A stretch of 64,000 nt of DNA from an uncultured bacterium (GTDB lineage Bacteria; Desulfobacterota; Desulfobaccia; Desulfobaccales; 0-14-0-80-60-11): assembly GCA_937943575.1 (NCBI GenBank), contig CALEAV010000002.1, positions 1 to 64,000 on the forward strand. Direction: 5' to 3'. The notes below the pieces were generated by a model that saw nothing but the letters and a program-made list of their open reading frames with translations, was not told the DNA's origin and did no database searches. Of the stretch, positions 11,657-14,226 are shown one piece after another. The translations under genes were made by a program, and so were the position numbers. Numbering within the stretch: the stretch's first letter is position 1; every line of letters begins with the position of its first letter.

Positions 11657-12370
11657 TCACCCCTTCCCTGCCCCGAAGACCTCCCTCCCCTGCAGCCAGC
11701 GGGGCAGGGCCTGCGGGTCGGCCAGGATCTGCGTCATCGCCGCAAGGAGTTCCAGGGGCCCCGCCTGAACGCCGAGTGTTTGGGCCCCCTCGGTAAGCCC
11801 CTGGCTTACGGTCCGGGCAAAGTCGTGGCGGTGTTCATAATAGCGGTCCGGCAGGAGGGCCTCCGCCTCCAGGGAACGCCGGCAGTGCTCTGGATCCAGG
11901 GAGTGCATGGCCCGGCACATGAGGGGCCGCACCGGATAGATGGCGCAGTGGTCCCCGGAGAGGAAGGGGCAGGGGAACTCCCGGCGCCGCCTGGCCAGTT
12001 CCGAGGGGCTGAGCCTCCGGCGCCCCTTCGCCTCCTCCTCAAGAGCCGCCGCCAGTCCCGGCAGGCGCTCCGGGGCCACCCGTTGGGTCAGAAAATCGGC
12101 GATGAGAAAGGCCTCCGGCGGGGTCAGCTCCACCTGGTTGTAGCAGCAGTAACTGCAGCCCGACCGGCAGACGACGGGCTCAGGGAGCGGGTGGGCCGCC
12201 TCAAAGTGGCGCACGGCCCATTCCCACAGGAGATGAGCCTCCCGGGTGACGGCCAGCAGGGCGGCGGCCGGATCCGGAGCACCGCGGGCTTCCGCCAGGC
12301 GGCGGGCCACCCCGGCAATGAGGAGGGCGGGCGAGAGCATGACCGACTCCCGGGAGAGTTTGTGCAGCAT
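11657..12370 (-). CDS. YkgJ-family cysteine cluster protein
   Basis: About 237 aa. The cysteine arrangement CRSGCSYCC (middle) followed by CPFLSGDHCAIYPVRPLMCR identifies the YkgJ zinc/iron-chelating cluster family; the biochemical role of the family is unknown, with some members linked to Fe-S or metal chemistry. No signal peptide is seen. Start choice is uncertain: ATG 12370 has AAGG about 9 nt upstream, while ATG 12379, ATG 12394 and TTG 12412 are also in frame. It is divergent from selD, and its upstream region contains the selD promoter with a GACCTT/AAGGTC inverted repeat that could serve both genes. Confidence 0.75.
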   Translation of the reverse strand: MLHKLSRESVMLSPALLIAGVARRLAEARGAPDPAAALLAVTREAHLLWEWAVRHFEAAHPLPEPVVCRSGCSYCCYNQVELTPPEAFLIADFLTQRVAPERLPGLAAALEEEAKGRRRLSPSELARRRREFPCPFLSGDHCAIYPVRPLMCRAMHSLDPEHCRRSLEAEALLPDRYYEHRHDFARTVSQGLTEGAQTLGVQAGPLELLAAMTQILADPQALPRWLQGREVFGAGKG

Positions 12371-12425
12371 CTTTCCCATCCTTACCACAACCATCCCTCC
12401 AAAACCAGCCAAACCCTGACCTTAC

Positions 12426-12454: not shown

Positions 12455-12470
12455 TAATAATGATTACTTG

Positions 12471-12603
12471 AGGGAGGGCCGGGGGAGCCTGGCTTCCCCG
12501 CCCTCCCCTCAATCTCCCCTCCCCACCCCCCGATACGGGGTTGGGGGAGTGGGTGTAGGAGAGGGGGCAGGGGTCAACGACTCCTGGCCCCCTCTCCCAT
12601 ATA
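12471..12603. repeat. GC-rich structured intergenic repeat, copy A
   Basis: Two successive inverted repeats: GGGAGGG...CCCTCCC flanking 12472-12509, and GGGGC/AGGGGTC paired with GACTCCT/GGCCCC at about 12560-12590. A closely similar element with the same order of blocks lies at 53763-53905. It occupies the 5' leader of selD and ends 16 nt before the start codon. Confidence 0.6.
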
Positions 12604-12619
12604 AATGCGGGGAAACGCC

Positions 12620-13672
12620 ATGACGGAACAGGCATACAAGCCGCTGATGGAGCAGGTGCGGGCGGCGGGGTGAGCTGCCAAGCTTCCTCCCGGGTTGTTG
12701 GAGGAAATCCTGGCAAGCCTGCCCCGCCGGGCCCACCCGGATCTGCTCGTGGGGCTGGAGACCGCGGATGATGCGGGGGTCTACCGGCTGACGCCGGAGA
12801 TCGCCCTCATCCAGACGGTGGATTTTTTCACCCCGGTGGTGAACGACCCCTTCACCTTCGGGCAGATCGCTGCGGCCAATGCCTTAAGCGACGTCTTCGC
12901 CATGGGCGGGCGGCCGCTGACGGCCATGAACATCGTCTGCTACCCCAGCGCCACGGTGCCCAAGGAGGTGCTGAAAGACATCCTGGCCGGGGGGCTGGAC
13001 AAGATCCACGAGGCCGGGGCGCTTCTGGTGGGCGGCCACAGCGTGGATGACACCGAGCTCAAGTACGGGCTGGCGGTGACGGGAGTGGTGCACCCGGAGC
13101 GGGTCCTCACCAACGCCGGGGCCCGCCCCGGGGATGTGCTGCTGCTTACCAAGCCGGTGGGCACGGGCATCATCGCCACGGCCATGAAAGGCCGCCTGGC
13201 CTCCCCCGAGGCCGAGGCCGGGGCGGTGGCGGTGATGACCGCCCTCAACCGCCTCCCCGAGGAGGCCCTGGCCCCCGGCGCGGTCCACGGCCTCACGGAT
13301 ATCACCGGCTTCGGGCTTCTGGGTCATGCCCTGGAGATGGCGGTGGCCAGCCGGGTGGAGCTGACCCTTTTTGCCGGCCGGGTGCCGCTCCTCCCCGGGG
13401 CCTACGATTACGCCGCCATGGGGCTGGTGCCGGCCGGGAGCTTTGCCAACCGCAATTTCTGCGCCAAAAGTCTCATGGTGGACCCCGGGGTGGACCCGGT
13501 GCTCCTGGATCTTCTGGCCGACGCCCAGACCAACGGCGGCCTCCTCCTCGCCGCGGCCCCGGAGGCGGCCGACGCCCTCCTCACCGCCCTCCACCGGGAG
13601 GGCTTCCCCCACGCCGCCCTGATCGGCGAGGTCACCGCCGCCGGCCCCGGCTGCATCCGCCTGGCGCCGTAA
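12620..13672 (+). CDS. selD: Selenophosphate synthetase, itself a selenoprotein (in-frame UGA = Sec18)
   Basis: ATP-dependent synthesis of selenophosphate from selenide, the Se donor for Sec-tRNA. From ATG 12620 the frame reads 17 codons, a TGA at 12671-12673, then continues without interruption to 13672: 350 aa including Sec, the normal SelD length. The UGA falls at the family's active-site position: Sec18-Ala-Ala-Lys21 corresponds to Cys17-x-x-Lys20 of E. coli SelD. Downstream are ADDAGVY, the glycine-rich VDFFTPVVNDPFTFGQIAAANALSD Mg-ATP segment, VGGHSVDD, TDITGFGLLGH and the C-terminal NGGLLLA. A naive start at TTG 12695 would remove the catalytic residues. A SECIS-like hairpin follows the UGA immediately. 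Sec incorporation itself is inferred. Confidence 0.93.
12677..12714 (+). promoter_or_regulatory. Bacterial SECIS element in selD
   Basis: Hairpin just 3' of the UGA: lower stem GCCA (12677-12680)/TGGC (12711-12714), internal loop, upper stem TTCCTCC (12684-12690)/GGAGGAA (12700-12706), apical loop of nine bases containing GGGTTGT (12691-12699). The loop starts 17 nt after the UGA and has a GGUU-type sequence as in known bacterial SECIS loops read by SelB. Confidence 0.75.
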
Positions 13673-13806: not shown

Positions 13807-14226
13807 ATGCTCCGGCTCTACCTGGCCGGCTGCCCCGGTCTGGGACGCCTGGGACGGGCCGCCAGGGAAAATGTGGAGGCGGCTTTGGGACGACTGGTCC
13901 GGAACGGCGAGATCGTCCTGGAGGATGAGCTGGGGCAGCGGCGACCCGAAGGCAGGGTGGCGCGGCTGGCGGGCACTCCCCCCGTAGTGGAGCGTCCGGC
14001 GGGCATCCGCAAACTGGAGGAGATCCCGCCCCGGGAGATCTTCCTCCTCATGGACCGCTGGTGGCTGCCCTCCTCCCTTGACGGGCAGGACATGGAAGAG
14101 TATTTTTTCCGGAAAATTCCCGATCATTACGGCTATCAGAGACTCACCCGGAGCCCCCGGCAGCCCCTGAGGAGGCTGTATCAGGTCTGCAGGCGGCGCA
14201 CCCAGCCCCTGTGGCTGGTGAAATAA
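13807..14226 (+). CDS. Hypothetical protein, possible C-terminal fragment of a larger gene
   Basis: 139 aa, basic, no signal peptide. The composition and pattern (short helical RLGRAARENVEAALGRLVRNGEI, then RRPEGRVARLAGTPPVVERP and LEEIPPREIFLLM) recall the winged-helix tail and following EEIPP segment at the C-terminus of DUF3320-type helicase proteins; this is a weak recognition. The frame stays open 14 codons before the ATG with no better start and no ribosome site, so it could be a 3' remnant. The region to selD (13673-13806) has no other clear gene. Confidence 0.4.
   Translation: MLRLYLAGCPGLGRLGRAARENVEAALGRLVRNGEIVLEDELGQRRPEGRVARLAGTPPVVERPAGIRKLEEIPPREIFLLMDRWWLPSSLDGQDMEEYFFRKIPDHYGYQRLTRSPRQPLRRLYQVCRRRTQPLWLVK

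Follow-up and report, generated by a model that had tools for sequence, protein, structure and literature searches.

The stretch of DNA analysed here (64,000 nucleotides, the window) carries a selD gene whose reading frame is crossed by one in-frame TGA. The frame opens at ATG 12620, reads 17 codons to TGA 12671-12673, continues for 332 sense codons and ends at TAA 13670-13672; the TGA, at codon 18, is the only one among its 350 codons. The ATG, the 17 codons and the UGA given in the original prediction were confirmed by the sequence and by translation with TGA read as U, and the total of 350 aa was likewise confirmed, start and length being conserved in relatives. The codons downstream of the UGA lie in the same frame, as had been claimed; they number 332, and the 325 given earlier is the count from TTG 12695. 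It had also been anticipated that gene calling with UGA as a stop would truncate the gene, and the six-frame ORF list indeed offers an ORF from TTG 12695 in which the active site is lost. The features of the region, with the evidence for each, are as follows.

11657-12412, minus strand: gene for a CxxCxxCC protein
12608-12615, plus strand: purine-rich stretch (GGGGAAA) 5' of ATG 12620, a putative Shine-Dalgarno-like site of weak consensus, read from the sequence
12620-13672, plus strand: selD, selenide, water dikinase (selenophosphate synthetase), 350 aa with one predicted selenocysteine (Sec, U18); translation with TGA as U, TIGR00476, PDB SelD matches, start and length in relatives
12671-12673, plus strand: in-frame UGA, predicted Sec codon at the catalytic Cys/Sec position; alignment with the active-site Cys of 2yye and 3u0o, UGA or Cys in homologues
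12676-12715, plus strand: possible lower stem of the SECIS, formed beneath the upper one by 12676-12680 with 12711-12715; one folding calculation
12680-12682, plus strand: AAG codon for the conserved Lys K21 at Sec+3; U18-A-A-K21 in the translation, kept in the PDB alignments
12684-12706, plus strand: predicted apical hairpin of a bacterial SECIS, 7-bp upper stem 12684-12690/12700-12706 with the 9-nt loop CGGGUUGUU; energy, spacing, pairing register, paired substitutions
12695-13672, plus strand: shortened ORF expected from a caller that stops at UGA, TTG start, 325 aa, without the active-site Sec and Lys; six-frame ORF list

Between the CxxCxxCC protein gene and selD, at 12460-12605, lie GC-rich complementary stretches (GGAGGG/CCCTCC and GGGGGC/GCCCCC), which are possibly terminator- or repeat-like hairpins. 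An Rfam scan of the region returned sub-threshold noise only, mostly microRNA models placed on these repeats, and no relevant family. Downstream of selD, an ORF of 139 aa (13807-14226) had no Pfam match and may not be a gene.

The read-through product was compared with SelD models and structures. It matched TIGR00476, the SelD equivalog, over residues 11-316 with 371.4 bits (cut-off 125, E 3.3e-111), and PRK00943 with 339 bits (cut-off 299). The PDB SelD chains 3u0o and 2yye, the latter of which we take to be the Aquifex aeolicus SelD, align from residue 9 or 10 on, straight across the UGA. The UGA is aligned with their active-site Cys, and Lys follows at +3. The 2yye alignment spans residues 9-319 and passes through the active-site loop 'vr.sgcaak'; the solved chain has Cys at the site, whereas the window gene has UGA. 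The catalytic Cys/Sec with Lys at +3 in the N-terminal loop, a mark of SelD membership, is found here as U18-A-A-K21, and the claimed place of the UGA, at the catalytic position with the Lys as the third residue after it, was borne out by the translation and the PDB alignments. The alignment of the 350-aa product that had been proposed as a check of the original prediction gave a full-length SelD match that runs across the UGA into the 2yye active site. The codons 5' of the UGA are conserved as protein as well: matches in relatives begin at residue 1-3, which is not what a chance upstream ORF would give.

We compared the locus in 40 genomes, from the same genus out to the same phylum. Within the genus, family and order, wherever a genome has a full-length SelD, the best one contains exactly one internal TGA, down to 68% identity, the exception being one extra Cys copy in genome G018. 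The aligned codon over 80 loci, which represent 68 distinct contexts, is TGA in 55/68 and TGC or TGT (Cys) in 13/68, the 13 Cys-bearing homologues being more distant. An exchange of UGA and Cys at one site is an accepted signature of selenocysteine, and the window gene conforms to it, with an in-frame UGA where homologues have Cys. Homologues carry UGA or Cys at this codon behind a conserved N-terminus, rather than the normal stop and unrelated upstream sequence that would have spoken against the original prediction. SelA was present in 28/31 genomes tested, including all tested family members.

Two observations concern the copies of selD in individual relatives. In G018, a Cys-selD (L124, G018:C5:1-6000, minus strand, 54-1097) stands beside the UGA-selD of the same genome (L035), and its TGC codon still has an intact SECIS-like hairpin on the 3' side, CCTCCAGG-GGT-CCTGGAGG. 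SECIS remnants are known to persist behind Cys codons (PMC1794560), and L124 has the look of a gene recently converted from Sec to Cys, its SECIS now a fossil; mixed strains in the draft genome may instead account for the L124/L035 pair. Two genomes of the same phylum, G034 (L044, L125) and G037 (L043, L126), hold two different UGA-containing selD genes each.

The stem-loop claimed to follow the UGA, with 7 bp and a loop 17 nt away, was found at the coordinates listed above and lies within the published constraints for a bacterial SECIS. The bSECIS model (PMC13188914, Fig. 2) calls for a stem of 4-16 bp, a loop of 3-9 nt, a spacing of 16-37 nt from the UGA, a G in the first two loop positions and an MFE of at most -7.5 kcal/mol. 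The selD hairpin agrees on every point: 7 bp, a loop of 9 nt (12691-12699) with G at position 2, followed by another G, a spacing of 17 nt and about -8.3 kcal/mol. Its loop has the largest size that the consensus allows; in several relatives the same stem ends in a 3-nt loop. Folding of 12674-12715, which would include the possible lower stem, gave -15.2 kcal/mol.

On its own, this hairpin is weak evidence for Sec. The window is GC-rich, and a stem of equal strength lies close to 6.6% of its TGA trinucleotides, or to 3.5% when the loop must also carry a G at position 1 or 2. The folding energy of the whole region, taken from the window sequence alone, is unremarkable (z between 0 and -0.8). 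These single-sequence MFE z-scores were uninformative, and the hairpin was therefore judged by synonymous-codon shuffles over the homologues and by pair counts. Among UGA homologues, the hairpin energy is more stable than in the shuffles (mean z -2.24, n=55); among Cys homologues it is not better than in the shuffles, at -0.32 for TGC (n=10) and +0.12 for TGT (n=3). For the window selD itself, the energy is not better than in synonymous shuffles (z 0.27), and a stem of equal strength arises in only about 0.3% of them. In the members of the order, the register of the window stem pairs 93% of cells, the top value of the 18 registers tried. Covariation in a 30-sequence alignment was 0.332 vs 0.172 in shuffles, with 0/500 as high, and it lay above that of every slid register, a test inflated towards structure by the eleven distant rows of this alignment that were picked partly for their shared register. 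Across the homologues, the evidence for the hairpin is strong. Chance falls far short of explaining the frame that stays open before and after the UGA, the conservation of the UGA in relatives and that of the hairpin.

The source genome is a 2.58-Mb draft in 62 contigs, 95.8% complete. Its nearest named relatives, all MAGs, go under the labels Desulfobacca, Syntrophobacterales or Deltaproteobacteria. A search for selA, selB and selC, on whose presence the original prediction had hung its case, found all three: selA on contig 44 (E 2.5e-158), selB on contig 60 (352 bits, cut-off 242) and the tRNA-Sec gene selC on contig 61 (73.8 bits, anticodon UCA). A search of the genome for ybbB/selU, the selenouridine synthase that stands for an alternative use of selenophosphate, found no copy; Sec is thus the apparent use of selenophosphate. 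Family searches, by which the selenoprotein count is a lower bound, recovered UGA-interrupted genes for two formate dehydrogenase alpha subunits, three FlpD-domain proteins and one NiFe hydrogenase large subunit. Read in their own frames, the UGA contexts are CARLUHS in both copies of FdhA, GUHLGDCHY in two FlpD/MvhD-type proteins and DPULSCATH in the NiFe(Se) hydrogenase large subunit. These contexts (CARL-U-HS, G-U-HLGDCHY, DP-U-LSCATH) we take to be the classical Sec sites of their families. The two formate dehydrogenases, the two FlpD/MvhD-type proteins and the NiFe(Se) hydrogenase (L099, L100, L108, L109, L119) are accordingly listed as further candidate selenoproteins with UGA at canonical Sec sites. 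In the third FlpD-domain protein (L111, G000:C22:29397-29765, minus strand), the UGA stands in an unusual context, CCRYUAYSAAD, at residue 9 of the match, and not at the usual GUHLGDCHY site. TusA-type selenoproteins were also sought, and the TusA copies found have no UGA.

Three other readings of the UGA were weighed. The genome record is a draft and Cys homologues exist, so the TGA could have arisen from the TGC or TGT of an ordinary Cys-SelD, by an error in sequencing or assembly or through a nonsense mutation of recent date. Yet all closely related independent genomes that have a full-length selD share this UGA, and with it a conserved hairpin that is mostly missing from the Cys homologues; conservation of the UGA across independent assemblies already refutes this explanation, to which we assign practically no probability. 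It is just as hard to credit that the UGA is a real stop and that translation of SelD begins at the internal TTG 12695, giving a 325-aa protein that lacks the N-terminal active-site segment. A stop-bounded ORF does exist at 12695, but its product would miss the catalytic Sec/Cys and the Lys, the pre-UGA codons are conserved as protein in relatives, and the genome holds the Sec machinery and other Sec genes. Reading of the UGA as another amino acid, for example Trp by a code change, or Cys, is a prospect of the same vanishing order: we found nothing in its favour, and against it stand a dedicated tRNA-Sec (UCA) with SelA and SelB, UGA at canonical Sec sites in several families, and Cys as the exchange partner at the site, as expected for Sec.

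The locus is thus almost certainly a functional selD with an active-site Sec, its UGA decoded through SelB, Sec-tRNA(Sec) and a bacterial SECIS. The proposal that selD is a selenoprotein gene is supported by the SelD match through the UGA, the agreement with the bSECIS constraints, the presence of selA, selB and selC, and the homologues. Gene identity, UGA position, machinery and hairpin are established at the level of sequence. From what is known of the family, we infer that Sec is inserted at residue 18 and that the enzyme is catalytically active. In the proposed mechanism, the SECIS hairpin directly downstream would recruit SelB and Sec-tRNA(Sec), and these would decode UGA 12671 as Sec. 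SelD would make selenophosphate from selenide and ATP, and SelA would use this selenophosphate to form Sec-tRNA(Sec); SelD would therefore supply selenium for its own synthesis as well as for that of the formate dehydrogenases, the FlpD/MvhD-type proteins and the NiFeSe hydrogenase.

The arrangement resembles the Sec-SelD of Deltaproteobacteria (Syntrophobacter, Desulfovibrio, Geobacter; PMC1794560), in which a bacterial SECIS likewise lies directly 3' of the UGA. SelD is listed there as a selenoprotein in genomes that have SelA/SelB together with Sec-FdhA, FrhD-type and FrhA-type proteins (PMC1794560). We see no essential difference from these systems, and the window gene is a new species-level member from a Desulfobacca-like draft genome. 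It is improbable, in our estimate, that a lineage-specific form of the SelD SECIS is in use across the order around Desulfobacca, with a register shifted 3' of the GGUCC-type 3-nt-loop hairpin of some distant homologues and a loop of 3 to 9 nt; if true, this would imply somewhat different SelB recognition. The original prediction is correct, yet what it describes is ordinary: the window selD encodes a textbook bacterial selenoprotein whose family is well described, from a lineage that has been little studied, and it leaves the understanding of SelD and of Sec insertion unchanged. The value of the finding lies mainly in annotation: standard gene calling in this lineage would yield a 325-aa SelD minus the active site, and misannotation of selenoprotein genes when UGA is mistaken for a stop is a standard remark (PMC1088965). 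For the organism, the finding means that this Desulfobacca-like bacterium is a Sec-decoding one with at least six UGA-encoded proteins.
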